A stretch of DNA of 38,882 bases from Candidatus Zambryskiibacteriota bacterium. GTDB lineage: Bacteria > Patescibacteriota > Minisyncoccia > Phycocordibacterales > DATDWN01. The translations under genes and the position numbers were made by a program. Below are positions 30,865 to 36,090 of the stretch, one piece after another (positions within the stretch are counted from its first letter, which is position 1; each line of letters starts with the position of its first letter). The notes below the pieces were generated by a model. It saw nothing but the letters and a program-made list of their open reading frames with translations. It ran no database searches and had not been told where the DNA came from. Location of the stretch: contig JAPLZY010000028.1 in NCBI GenBank assembly GCA_026394775.1, positions 1-38,882 of the forward strand, read 5' to 3'.

Positions 30865-31953
30865 CCTAGAGGACGGGCTCAATCCGAACACTCACTTTTA
30901 AATATCAAAACCAAAAAGAAGCACGTCAGTGCTTCTTTTTGCGTCTGTACGCATCAAGCTTCTCTTGAGGAGTTGCATACCCCAAGCATTTCATTGGTCT
31001 GCGATTGAGTTTTGCTTCGAGGGAAGCAATGAATTCAGGAGTCAACTTGGAAAGGTTAGTACCTTTCGGTATGTCTCTCCGAATATATTTGTTCGTGTTC
31101 TCTACGGTACCTTTTTCCCATGAATGGTACGGGTGACAAAAATATATCTTGATCTTGAGAAGTTTTGCGAGCTCAACATGCTTCCGAAACAAAATATCAT
31201 TGTCGAGAGTCAGACTCTTCATTTCAGGAAATCGTTTTTGGATTCGAACAAATGCATCATGCACTGATTGGATGGATACATCCAGAATGAGTTCAAGAAA
31301 TGTCACTCGAAATCTTCGATCAACAACCACAAGAAGTATTCCATTTCCTCCTCTTCCTGATACCACGAAATCCGCTTCACAATCGCCCATACGAGATCTT
31401 GTATTGATATACAAAGGTCTTTTGTCGATGAATGCACGATCAGCGATGTTTGGATGAATGAAAATTCTCTTCTTTCTCCTCCGTCTTTTGTTTTTCCTAT
31501 GTACCTCAATCTTTCTTCCGTACACACTTTCGATATATCGATATATGCTGTTTTTTGATATACCAACAATATCTTTTTCTTTCATCTTCAATCTTCCTGC
31601 AATTGCTTGTGGTGACAAGTCATCAAGTAGTCCTGTGTCTACAAACATCTTCATCTTTTTGTCTTCCACAATGTGCATACCTTGATACTTGCTTTGCTGA
31701 CGCCTCACGTATGCCTTGTGATCCGCTTTGGAAGGGTCGTACCGACCCTTCACTGAGTTTCTTTTGATTTCATCACTGATCGTGGAGACACTTCGGTCCA
31801 CTGCGAGTGCAATATTTCTTAATGAGTATCCTTTTTCTTTCAACAGAAATATTTCTTGCTGATCACTTTTTGAGAGGTGTGATCTATCAGAATTTTTTTA
31901 AATTTTCTCATACAAAAAGTATACAAGTGTTCGGATTCAAATGGGATGTTAGG
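30865..31953 (-). mobile_element. IS30-family insertion sequence, complete
   Basis: The 1089-bp element has 28-nt ends (30865-30892 and 31926-31953) that begin CCTA and share AATCCGAACACT, flanked by a 3-bp direct repeat AAC on both sides. It contains one transposase on the minus strand. Its right end is also found as a remnant at 142-244. It separates a Shine-Dalgarno-like AGGAG (30855-30859) from the gene starting at 31983. Confidence 0.85.
30926..31911 (-). CDS. IS30-family transposase, needs a -1 shift at A7
   Basis: The long frame (up to a TTG at 31843) covers the helix-turn-helix (GYSLRNIALAVDRSVSTISD), a basic linker, and the DDE domain with GDCEADFVV, LTLDND and the final Glu in HSWEKGTVENTNKYIRR, ending LNRRPMKCLGYATPQEKL. 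The expected IS30 N-terminus (SHLSKSDQQEIFLLKE) continues upstream in this frame without a start codon. An ATG at 31911 reads MRKFKK in the other frame. A -1 slip on seven A (31893-31899) joins them. The -10 TATACT is 6 nt before this ATG. Confidence 0.85.
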
Positions 31954-33800: not shown

Positions 33801-34214
33801 TTAGGGGGTGCTCGTGAATTGAAGGAGAAGAAAGGTAATCCAGCTTGTTTGAGAGATAAAAGTGGCGAGAAACATAGAGAAAAGAGGGAGTTTTTGGTTT
33901 GGGTTGGTGAGGTTGAGCTTCTTTTTAGTTATCTGCAAAAATATGCCATTAAGACCCAGGATGCCGAGGAGGATGAGCTGGTAGGTGATAAGGGGTGTGA
34001 GGGGAGTAAAAGAAAGGGTGCCAAGAAGACCAACGACAATACCACTCCATCCAAGCCAGATGAGTGGTTGAGTGATTCCGGTCATGCTGTACACAAAATC
34101 CATTGAACGCTTTTTAAAAAGCCAAAAAAGCCCTGCAGTGTCGATGGTGACTACGGCACCATATCCGATAATACATGAGATAAATATGAGGGCTTGAAAT
34201 AATAGAGGGGTCAT
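33801..34214 (-). CDS. Integral membrane protein (137 aa)
   Basis: Four hydrophobic segments (about residues 5-30, 45-67, 72-92 and 110-133) and short polar loops with KKRSMD and KKKLNLTNPNQK. No family is recognised. The first segment may double as a signal anchor. The -10 TATACT is 6 nt before the ATG, so a leaderless transcript is predicted. Confidence 0.8.
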   Translation of the reverse strand: MTPLLFQALIFISCIIGYGAVVTIDTAGLFWLFKKRSMDFVYSMTGITQPLIWLGWSGIVVGLLGTLSFTPLTPLITYQLILLGILGLNGIFLQITKKKLNLTNPNQKLPLFSMFLATFISQTSWITFLLLQFTSTP

Positions 34215-34292: not shown

Positions 34293-34676
34293 TTAGCTCT
34301 CGATGTGGATTGCGAGACGAAAATCCTTTGAATGAGGTGAGATCCACCCAGGCTTTAAAGGGTTAATGTGTGTGACTGTAAAAGGTTTGCGGTAACTCCT
34401 TTTTACGGGCTCCAGTACACAATCTAAAAACTGACTCGAACAGGTTCCTCGTTCCGGGTTAACAAAGATCTTTGCGGTCTTGAATAGCTTTTTTGCCTCT
34501 GCTTCGCTGAATACTATCCATCGACACCCGTTGTCTTTCATCAGCTCTTCCTGAATCATGAAAGCGAAGGCGGGGAATGCTGGATCAAAGAAATGATTCA
34601 CAGCTTCCTTACGGTGCTTTGTTCTAAAGAGTTTTTTGTACAGCCTTCCATTTTTACCAATTTTCCAAATTTCCAT
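34293..34676 (-). CDS. Hypothetical protein (127 aa), SD-led orphan
   Basis: The ATG follows AGGAG by 7 nt (minus strand TAGGAGACCTGCATG). The 127-residue basic protein begins MEIWKIGKNGRLYKKLFRTK and ends FRLAIHIES; Cys residues lie near the middle. No family is recognised. It has a hairpin after it and belongs to the orphan set with strong ribosome sites. Confidence 0.7.
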   Translation of the reverse strand: MEIWKIGKNGRLYKKLFRTKHRKEAVNHFFDPAFPAFAFMIQEELMKDNGCRWIVFSEAEAKKLFKTAKIFVNPERGTCSSQFLDCVLEPVKRSYRKPFTVTHINPLKPGWISPHSKDFRLAIHIES

Positions 34677-34781: not shown

Positions 34782-35135
34782 TTATGCTGGAGTGGGGTGT
34801 TCTTCCTTCCACTCGATCTTTTTGCGGTTCGTAACCCAGATCGGATAACGACCTTTTGGGCAACGGCCGTGGGTGATTCGTGGTTGCTCGAGCTTGCCCT
34901 CTCGGTAAAGCTTCCGGGCAAGGCGAGCGGCTTTGTTGCGAGTGGCGGGATTGAACCAGTAGTATTTTCTGTACTCCTGGATCATTTTCTCGAACTGTTC
35001 TGGAGTTCGAGCTGACGTCCTAGTGATGATTAGTTTTACATCGTCGTACTCCACTTTGCCTTCAGCTATTTCTTCACAGCACCAACTGAGGCTTAGGCCG
35101 ATAAGTTTCGGTCTTTTAGATTCTTGGTTAGACAT
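34782..35135 (-). CDS. Hypothetical protein (117 aa), SD-led orphan
   Basis: I start at the ATG at 35135, 7 nt after AGGAG, rather than at 35174. The 117-residue basic protein contains IGLSLSWCCEEIAEGKVEYD, a helical middle with RKYYWFNPATRNKAARLARK, and a C-terminus HGRCPKGRYPIWVTNRKK. A role at RNA or the ribosome is only a guess from charge. It has a clear promoter, a leader of about 130 nt and a strong terminator. Confidence 0.75.
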   Translation of the reverse strand: MSNQESKRPKLIGLSLSWCCEEIAEGKVEYDDVKLIITRTSARTPEQFEKMIQEYRKYYWFNPATRNKAARLARKLYREGKLEQPRITHGRCPKGRYPIWVTNRKKIEWKEEHPTPA

Positions 35136-35303
35136 AACTATTCTCCTATGGTTAGGGGTTGGTGTTTCGAACACCTTCCCACTAGTCTTCAGAGACCGAT
35201 AGTTTTTTTGTGAGTGTTCGATTTCAGGTAAATTTTAGTGTGCTAGGTCATAGTGACTCCTTTTCTGGATAAAACAATAGCATACAATATGGTATTGTGT
35301 CAA
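35136..35303 (-). promoter_or_regulatory. Promoter and leader of the 117-aa gene, with a two-codon ORF
   Basis: TTGACA (35298-35303), an 18-nt spacer and TATTGT (35274-35279). The spacer contains ACAATA-CCA-TATTGT. The leader has AAAAGGAG followed by ATG ACC TAG (35243-35251), then a perfect hairpin GGTGTT-TCG-AACACC (35161-35175) before the gene's own AGGAG. Confidence 0.6.
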
Positions 35304-35328
35304 GTGCAAAATGGTGGCATCGCCCCGC

Positions 35329-35629
35329 GACTAAATTTTTTGCCGTCGCAAAAAATTTGTCTGTACCACAAGGGCACTTCTATTTTACTAGCATCGAGTA
35401 CGATGAAGTAAAATAAGTCGAGCACCGGCTCGTATTTCGCTAATGCTTTAGCGAAAATCACTCCGCCGTTTCAATGCCACTCGCAAAAAATGTTTTGGAT
35501 GGTGACATTGACCCTTCGACTTTTTCCTCGTCGTCACTCGGAAAAGTCTAGGCACCAACTCGCGGTCCCATCTGGTGATGGGAGCCCTCGCTCCGTTGGC
35601 TTCAATGCACACGCAAAGCTCCGCTTTGC
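35329..35629. repeat. Array of short perfect hairpins beside the tmRNA gene
   Basis: Seven separate hairpins lie in 300 bp without a credible gene: 35329-35361, 35381-35415, 35419-35432, 35435-35456, 35518-35548, 35567-35582 and 35613-35629. Stems are 5-14 bp with loops of 3-13 nt. Words like TTCAATGCCAC (near 35470) and GGCTTCAATGCAC (near 35598) resemble the tmRNA T-arm sequence GGCTTCGATGCCAC. Confidence 0.7.
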
Positions 35630-35630
35630 T

Positions 35631-35690
35631 CACTTCCACAAAATATTAAAAAACCGCTCAAGAGCGGTTTTTTAATATTTTGTGGAAGTG
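35631..35690. terminator. 29-bp perfect inverted repeat, tmRNA terminator
   Basis: Arms 35631-35659 and 35662-35690 pair perfectly around AA. The inner part (AACCGCTC/GAGCGGTT with six T) is the tmRNA terminator on the minus strand. The outer part duplicates the tmRNA acceptor end CACTTCCA on the opposite strand. Confidence 0.9.
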
Positions 35691-36090
35691 GTGGCATCGA
35701 AGCCACGTGCATAGAGAGAACACGTTCGGGTCTACACTACATAGGCTATGTTAACGTTTAGACTTTTTCTCTATAACATATCCAAAATAAGAAAAAGGCG
35801 AGTTTCATTTTTTAGGCTTCAATCTGAAACAGGGGAGAAGCCGGACCTCAAGGTTATATGAATGAGACACCGTATGAGATATCAAGTGTATCACCCCCTC
35901 TTTGGGACGTGGCTTAAATTAAGCTCGTGCGAAAGAGAAAGCAAAGTTTGAAGCTCCAAAATATGGAGAAACAGAGGCTTTTGCTCGTGCAACAGTATTG
36001 TTTACACGTATAGTTTCAAGCAGTTTAAAGAGTAACTTGAACTCTGTAGTGCGCGAACGCATGCGGACTATGTCAAAACCTGGCACCCCC
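35683..36090 (-). ncRNA. ssrA: Transfer-messenger RNA (tmRNA)
   Basis: The 408-nt RNA has GGGGGTG at the 5' end pairing with CACTTCC at the 3' end (seven pairs, two G-U). The third pair is G-U, the alanine identity element, and the discriminator is A. CCA is not encoded. GGTTTTGACAT matches the conserved 5' GGNTTCGAC segment, and the T-arm reads GTGGC-TTCGAT-GCCAC. It rescues stalled ribosomes with SmpB, whose gene is immediately upstream. Confidence 0.92.
35919..36005 (-). other. tmRNA tag-peptide reading frame
   Basis: The frame GTA-AAC-AAT-ACT... to TAA encodes a tag of 28 residues beginning VNNT and ending NFAFSFARA. The start at GTA (36003-36005) is inferred from the AAC-AAT pattern common after resume codons; a later GCA is possible. 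The end ARA replaces the usual LAA/VAA type. Confidence 0.7.

Follow-up and report, generated by a model that had tools for sequence, protein, structure and literature searches.

Results

A hairpin array adjoins the tmRNA gene

The window (the whole stretch of DNA analysed here, 38,882 nucleotides long) carries a tmRNA gene on its minus strand, which was identified with Rfam and missed by ARAGORN; beyond it lie genes for SmpB and an FtsH-like protein. The open reading frames listed for the window include none of at least 80 amino acids from 35175 to 35680, and the DNA on this side of the gene has the following features.

35309-35322, plus strand: 14-nt far-side direct repeat of the tmRNA 3' end (13/14 nt identical to 35686-35699)
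35315-35479, plus strand: module 1, far from the tmRNA; degraded core with an inserted extra hairpin (model R1, 42.7 bits)
35329-35361, plus strand: hairpin hp1 of module 1 (the 35-nt stretch 35328-35362 is identical in a tRNA-Lys unit, G000:C1:18006-18040)
35364-35420, plus strand: 57-bp hairpin repeat within module 1 (96% identical to G000:C3:4437-4493)
35433-35458, plus strand: hairpin hp2 of module 1
35469-35480, plus strand: sense T-loop/T-stem-like word of module 1 (P1 3' arm)
35502-35610, plus strand: module 2, adjoining the tmRNA; three-way-junction core with stems P1, P2/hp1 and P3/hp2 (model R1, 70.9 bits)
35518-35548, plus strand: hairpin hp1 (P2) of module 2
35555-35599, plus strand: stem P3 with hairpin hp2 of module 2
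35600-35610, plus strand: inverted-orientation copy of the tmRNA T-loop/T-stem (P1 3' arm)
35613-35629, plus strand: hairpin hp3, separating the T-arm copy from the acceptor copy
35631-35690, no strand: 29-bp palindrome, a hairpin like a bidirectional intrinsic terminator, with the tmRNA acceptor 3' strand contained in its arms
35680-36090, minus strand: tmRNA gene, the target (RF00023, 75 bits)

Four non-overlapping strict hairpins (perfect stem of at least 7 bp, loop of 3-12 nt) were counted in 35310-35630; this number was reached by none of 500 dinucleotide shuffles, which averaged 0.16, and by none of the 118 other 321-nt windows in the 38.9 kb. With imperfect and nested stems included the array holds seven or eight hairpins, in agreement with the first-pass annotation, which had reported dense hairpins without a gene. 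Folded as single-stranded DNA, 35310-35700 (palindrome included) yielded z = -12.5, and RNA folding of 35310-35660 yielded z = -5.3. Two further elements of that annotation were also recovered: a 29-bp perfect inverted repeat with a tmRNA-end arm (35631-35659/35662-35690, spacer 2 nt), the right arm of which overlaps the tmRNA 3' end, and T-arm-like words at 35470-35480 and 35598-35610 on the plus strand, opposite to the tmRNA. The palindrome is a bidirectional terminator that has been lengthened to take in the tmRNA 3' end.

The array consists of two copies of one unit, as both modules are matched by the covariance model R1 described below; neither this duplication nor the far-side direct repeat had been noted in the first-pass annotation. 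Module 2 is intact, while module 1 is degraded and contains the extra 57-bp hairpin repeat, which occurs once there and once alone, without tRNA context, at its second site (G000:C3:4437-4493, equivalent to L003:1501-1557). Beside the array are three small minus-strand open reading frames (33801-34214, 34293-34676 and 34782-35174) with no matches in Pfam, PHROGs or NCBIfam, and at 30926-31843 the window encodes a transposase-like protein with an HTH_38 domain (PHROG 4646).

The units form a repeated family

When the genome to which the window belongs (753 kb, 32 contigs) was searched at the DNA level, pieces of the array turned up elsewhere, one of them beside tRNA-Lys with the layout seen at the tmRNA. 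Three copies defined the motif GCACCRRCTCG..CTCCG, which occurs at 14 places in 7 of the 17 family genomes, with no occurrence of the backwards control. Model R1, built from alignment A3 of 13 units (110 positions, 35 pairs, representing a core of about 110 nt), matched in 15 of the 17 family genomes, with up to 13 matches per genome, in at least 52 of 285 class genomes, and in at least 20 of 379 genomes of the phylum (Patescibacteria), at least eight of these outside the class; the class and phylum counts are lower bounds, with 13 and 10 candidates, respectively, scored per genome. The window's genome has nine R1 matches and three more in further stretches, and the single-contig genome G120 has at least 10.

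Among wider genome contigs, 36 stretches carried the motif pattern, and 11 of these were scored with R1, the other 25 not being counted. Clear matches were obtained in five (L170, L173, L174, L177, which is from an uncultured bacterium, and L186), one Stenotrophomonas stretch was borderline (15.7 bits, E 0.08), and the rest of the 11 had no match. Named sequences with confirmed units are labelled Patescibacteria, Taylorbacteria or Yanofskybacteria, and one is labelled uncultured bacterium. Annotated phages and plasmids yielded no unit match, and an origin in such elements was rejected: the four pattern hits on viral contigs had neither an R1 match nor a tRNA on the DNA examined. These four are near-identical to each other and to a Stenotrophomonas hit over the whole stretch compared, suggesting that they are one unrelated sequence, probably coding. 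Rfam has no family for the units, the only matches above the gathering threshold being tmRNA in the window and tRNA or tmRNA in six unit loci. Searches of open-access literature, read at the level of titles and abstract openings, yielded no description of such elements.

Unit anatomy and target site

On its plus strand, a unit begins with an arm that is antisense to the tRNA 3' end, followed by CYTCGACT, hp1 with its CGTC-type loop, GGGCACCGACTCGCG, hp2 with its TGCT-type loop, CGCTCCGTCG, and a sense copy of the T-loop and T-stem. After this T-arm copy there is often hp3 and often a sense copy of the acceptor, then the terminator, and finally, in antisense, the tRNA proper. Together the arms close off a three-way junction, and one common plan holds across several core subfamilies. 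A second type of core, CGCAAGACCTTGCYAGAGCTTTTGTANTCAAAAGATCRACAAGGTGTAC at tRNA-Pro and tRNA-Thr, where its orientations are opposite, was seen within T-arm copies or close to them in the same genome as the window (L122, a tRNA-Pro trailer; L126:320-430, tRNA-Thr; L123, tRNA-Ile).

We examined the surroundings of 86 units, 36 from the family set and 50 from the class set; before this count, four matches at doubly represented loci and one cut match were dropped from a group of 55, and two weak matches and one at a contig end from a group of five. A tRNA or tmRNA 3' end faces 72 of the 86 within 450 nt, with median gaps of 61 and 58 nt. The 14 units without a facing tRNA (4/36 and 10/50) include some at contig ends or N stretches, one beside a decayed tRNA, and a few that are unexplained. 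At L083:1378-1482 (G000:C8), a unit without an intact tRNA has arms that fit tRNA-Leu(gag), and its flank resembles a decayed tRNA-Leu. Contigs C2, C5, C12 and C26 of G000 end near modules or similar extended terminator palindromes beside tRNA genes. The hosts comprise tRNAs for Lys, Tyr, Trp, Ser, Arg, Gly, Leu, Thr, Gln, Asn, Met, Glu, Ile, Phe, Asp and Ala, in addition to tmRNA; nothing sets the tmRNA apart as a site, and it is one case of a general tRNA-targeting family.

The arms follow the local tRNA. The right arm matches its own tRNA at 10.25 of 12 nt, compared with 8.24 for the tRNAs of other units (300 partner permutations, maximum 8.54), and the left arm at 10.6 of 13, compared with 7.0. 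The left-arm match exceeds the 95th percentile in 52 of 72 units, with 20 of 72 failing to match their own tRNA at that level. One unit, at C2:13820 (L084), could be taken for a flipped copy beside tRNA-Phe; since its arms fit tRNA-Arg(cct), we read it as displaced rather than inverted. Some units occupy the same tRNA (Gly) in two genera, so part of the unit set may be old.

Direct repeats, tandem copies and empty sites

At the far edge of the unit lies a direct repeat of the tRNA 3' end, with a median score of 17.25 versus 7.0 when partners are swapped, and a score above the highest swapped one in 20 of 72 units. The repeat extends beyond the tRNA by at least 10 nt in 31 of 72 units and into the trailer or terminator (at least 25 nt) in 19 of 72, a trailer figure that counts neighbouring-module sequence for a few tandem units. 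Perfect direct repeats reach 73 (73/73), 70, 61 and 57 bp, and at tRNA-Leu(caa) of the window's genome the repeat is 48 nt at 98%, terminator included. Most of the 26 repeats listed have one end at a common place, the T-loop near C56-R57, and a variable other end; the duplicated target differs in length from case to case, unlike a standard target-site duplication. In the cases measured, direct repeats recur at 166-184 bp, and the insert is about 170-190 bp.

Tandem copies occur at other loci as well. In L202, modules with a 173-bp period and 99% identity start at the T-loop, and L170 has two different cores, between which lies a segment, containing hp3, the acceptor copy, the terminator and the tRNA end, that is identical to the one before the tRNA. 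Relatives with the same array in the same position were not seen: the window's tmRNA locus is the only one of 14 in the family with a unit, one of the other 13 being cut by a contig end. Downstream of tRNA-Pro, a second T-arm copy is uninterrupted in G016, whereas in G000 the T-loop at this place is occupied by a different hairpin core; the two loci resemble an empty and a filled site of another core type. The initial suggestion that the array may be a scar of repeated insertion or template switching came close, as related units lie at the T-loops of many different tRNA genes, carry target-derived direct and inverted repeats, occur in tandem, and are found at one of 14 tmRNA loci.

Cores are more alike within genomes than at the same tRNA elsewhere

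Core similarity was compared among 71 units, one core longer than 110 nt having been left out. Cores of one genome averaged 0.542, those of different genomes 0.511 when the anticodon was shared and 0.509 when it was not, so that the within-genome gap is small. The nearest core was in the same genome for 19 of 71 units (4.5 expected, 95% limit 9), a count that includes tandem pairs at one tRNA, and for 11 of 71 it lay in another genome at a tRNA for the same amino acid (6.4 expected, 95% limit 11), so that some inheritance with the tRNA may have occurred. A tRNA-Ser core of G016 and a tRNA-Thr core of G007 have a similarity of 0.90. As cores resemble others in their genome more than those at the same tRNA elsewhere, we conclude that cores move, although the within-genome likeness could also reflect gene conversion between resident units and not fresh insertion. 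For the most part, then, the core is not passed down with a single tRNA type, while the arms derive from the local tRNA; this combination of a mobile core with locally matched arms is the main puzzle.

The fold is maintained as DNA

Across 51 distinct class-wide units, changes on both sides were found at all 35 predicted pairs, and 92.6% of cells were pairing, compared with 64% after shuffling and 34-45% when slid. G·U pairs are tolerated by an RNA in its own strand and appear as A·C when the opposite strand is read. Unit stems contained 38 G·T and 34 A·C (p = 0.72; 1691 cells), and P2 and P3 together 15 and 20, while the acceptor and T stems of tRNAs from the family-genome stretches (99 of 101 tRNAs) contained 69 and 6 (Fisher p = 8e-8). 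Because G·T is no commoner than A·C, unlike in tRNAs of the same genomes, the unit fold is kept as DNA and not as RNA; the alignment was fitted to an RNA model and should if anything favour G·U, a bias that runs against this result. Selection for a DNA hairpin and correction of palindromes by template switching would leave the same wobble pattern.

No promoter-like signal was detected before 28 of the 31 R1 matches (5.46 vs 5.52 shuffled, p = 0.39), whereas 99 tRNAs did show one (5.88 vs 5.65, p = 3e-4). The other initial suggestion, an untranslated structured RNA, was accordingly rejected, mainly on the wobble comparison and in addition on the missing promoter signal.

Candidate partner enzymes

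Among Y1 transposases, reverse transcriptases and tyrosine recombinases in the 285 class genomes, we found no dedicated mobilizing enzyme. Y1 transposases show no association with units: 35 of the 52 unit-positive genomes have them, 17 lack them, and they are found in 152 of the 233 other class genomes (p = 0.87). Reverse transcriptases are weakly associated with units (32/52 vs 106/233 unit-negative genomes, p = 0.046); they are not required, however, because PF00078 is absent from 20 of 52 unit-positive genomes, several of them rich in units, such as G030 with at least six. Both sets of counts assume that the unit, Y1 and reverse transcriptase searches covered the identical 285 genomes, the identifiers of which agree. 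Tyrosine recombinases are present in 265 of 285 genomes, mostly as one copy, and none was found at the threshold used in the unit-positive genomes G285, G021 and G051. The single such protein of the window's genome is XerD/XerA-like and scores 118 bits against the integron-integrase model TIGR02249, for which the cut-off is 265.

Discussion

The array probably represents a DNA hairpin module, mobile and devoid of genes, that is present in two tandem copies and has the T-loops of tRNA and tmRNA genes as its insertion site. We observe a repeated family with a T-loop breakpoint, in which the end of the local tRNA is copied in both direct and inverted orientation, and we likewise observe selection or correction at the level of DNA rather than RNA, cores common to different tRNA genes, and tandem copies. 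A filled site, read on the tRNA strand, would consist of the tRNA 5' part, the T-loop, the tRNA 3' end and terminator, then the acceptor and T-arm copied in inverted orientation, frequently with hp3 between them, the conserved two-hairpin core, and lastly the original tRNA 3' end and terminator. The tRNA would stay functional because the duplicated 3' end restores it.

How such a site might arise can be proposed only tentatively. One possibility is that the module is a previously unknown form of mobile DNA, a self-folding single strand for which the T-loop of any tRNA gene serves as landing site, and that the closing stem is rebuilt by copying the T-arm, acceptor end and terminator of the target, so that one core fits every tRNA gene harmlessly and can be added in tandem. 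Single-stranded DNA, exposed on the lagging strand or during repair or transfer, would fold into the module, the core forming a three-way junction closed by the target-derived T-arm copies, and joining at the T-loop may be accomplished by an enzyme acting in trans or by the replication fork. The arms and terminator may be copied from the target by fold-back and template switching, the route running from fold-back at the terminator hairpin through copying of the acceptor and T-arm to a switch at the T-loop into the core, and then a switch back.

Among the alternatives, it is rather unlikely that the units are purely scars of replication template switching at tRNA terminators, with no dedicated element and with the core spread by microhomology at the universal T-loop sequence. 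The palindromes do extend outward from terminator hairpins, the terminator is included in the repeats, the T-loop sequence is common to all tRNAs, and palindromes can self-correct at the DNA level. Scars alone, however, would not keep the invariant positions and covarying stems of the core in different classes of the phylum.

We also judge it unlikely that the units are folded single-strand attachment sites like those of integrons or CTX phage, that is, T-loop cassettes recombined by a tyrosine recombinase such as the resident Xer. Integrases with T-loop crossovers in tRNA genes are known, and the DNA-level hairpins with bulges and internal loops, the T-loop breakpoint, and the tandem arrays with identical repeats between different cores would all suit such a system. 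However, the window's genome has no tyrosine recombinase beyond its XerD/XerA-like protein, three unit-positive genomes have none at the threshold used, and plain cassette integration leaves the match of arms and terminator to each target tRNA unexplained.

A structured regulatory RNA, antisense to and convergent with each tRNA and sharing its terminator, is improbable. The strong covariation, the conserved hairpin loops, the bidirectional terminator in common and the RNA folding score of the array fit such a transcript; set against these are stems in which G·T is no commoner than A·C, a promoter-like signal that is absent before the units and present for tRNAs, the lack of an Rfam match, and cores that are not tied to one tRNA type. 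Inverted chimeras from assembly or amplification scarcely merit consideration: several units do lie at contig ends and palindromes are hard to assemble, but the same structure recurs in independent genomes, including the single contig of G120, and chimeras cannot yield compensatory changes across genomes, a conservation that excludes artefact.

We compared the proposed T-loop module with attC sites, CTX attP, REP sequences, MITEs, casposons and tRNA-integrating elements, taking the features of these systems from general knowledge. Like REP/REPIN and MITE-type repeats, the units are short, gene-less, palindromic, intergenic, present in many copies per genome and presumably moved in trans; they differ in their specificity for tRNA T-loops, their target-copied arms and their three-way-junction core, and, unlike REP/RAYT or IS200/IS605 repeats, in having no association with Y1 transposases. 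A target duplication around a short gene-less insert is shared with MITEs, but the repeats of the units reach 73/73 bp and vary in length, and their inverted arms follow the local tRNA, whereas a MITE carries terminal inverted repeats of its own. Integron cassettes and the folded attP of CTX phage likewise have a conserved DNA hairpin and arrays of modules at one site; the units lack cargo genes, an R-box sequence and an integron integrase, and their arms are target-derived. The core boxes of integron attC sites, GTTRRRY/RYYYAAC, are absent from the units, in which the conserved right-hand word is mostly GTYC (alignments A2 and A3).

Prophages and integrative conjugative elements at tRNA 3' ends share the T-loop or 3'-end target, the direct repeat of the tRNA end and the restored tRNA. 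In contrast to them, the unit insert, where its length was determined, spans only about 170-190 bp, and it has no integrase gene, and units add an inverted copy and a second terminator and use many different tRNAs per genome. Casposon- and CRISPR-type integration also duplicates the target and lets arrays grow; by description, the units are set apart by a duplication that is variable in length and includes the terminator, and by a core that is one conserved family. A retroelement using tRNA 3' ends would be at odds with the 20 of 52 unit-positive genomes that lack a PF00078 match.

The ends of a small mobile repeat normally belong to the repeat itself. In this family the core travels but the arms are target-derived, so an insertion route that copies the target is needed, and the layout points to an undescribed way of inserting DNA. 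The defined structure, the breakpoint and the strand-neutral wobble count make its mechanism testable, and the comparison of G·T with A·C is a simple, general way to separate DNA-level from RNA-level folds. Units may break assemblies and confuse the annotation of tRNA and tmRNA genes. For the organism itself, a dozen copies in a 753-kb genome are a considerable burden, placed as they are at the small RNA genes that it can least do without.
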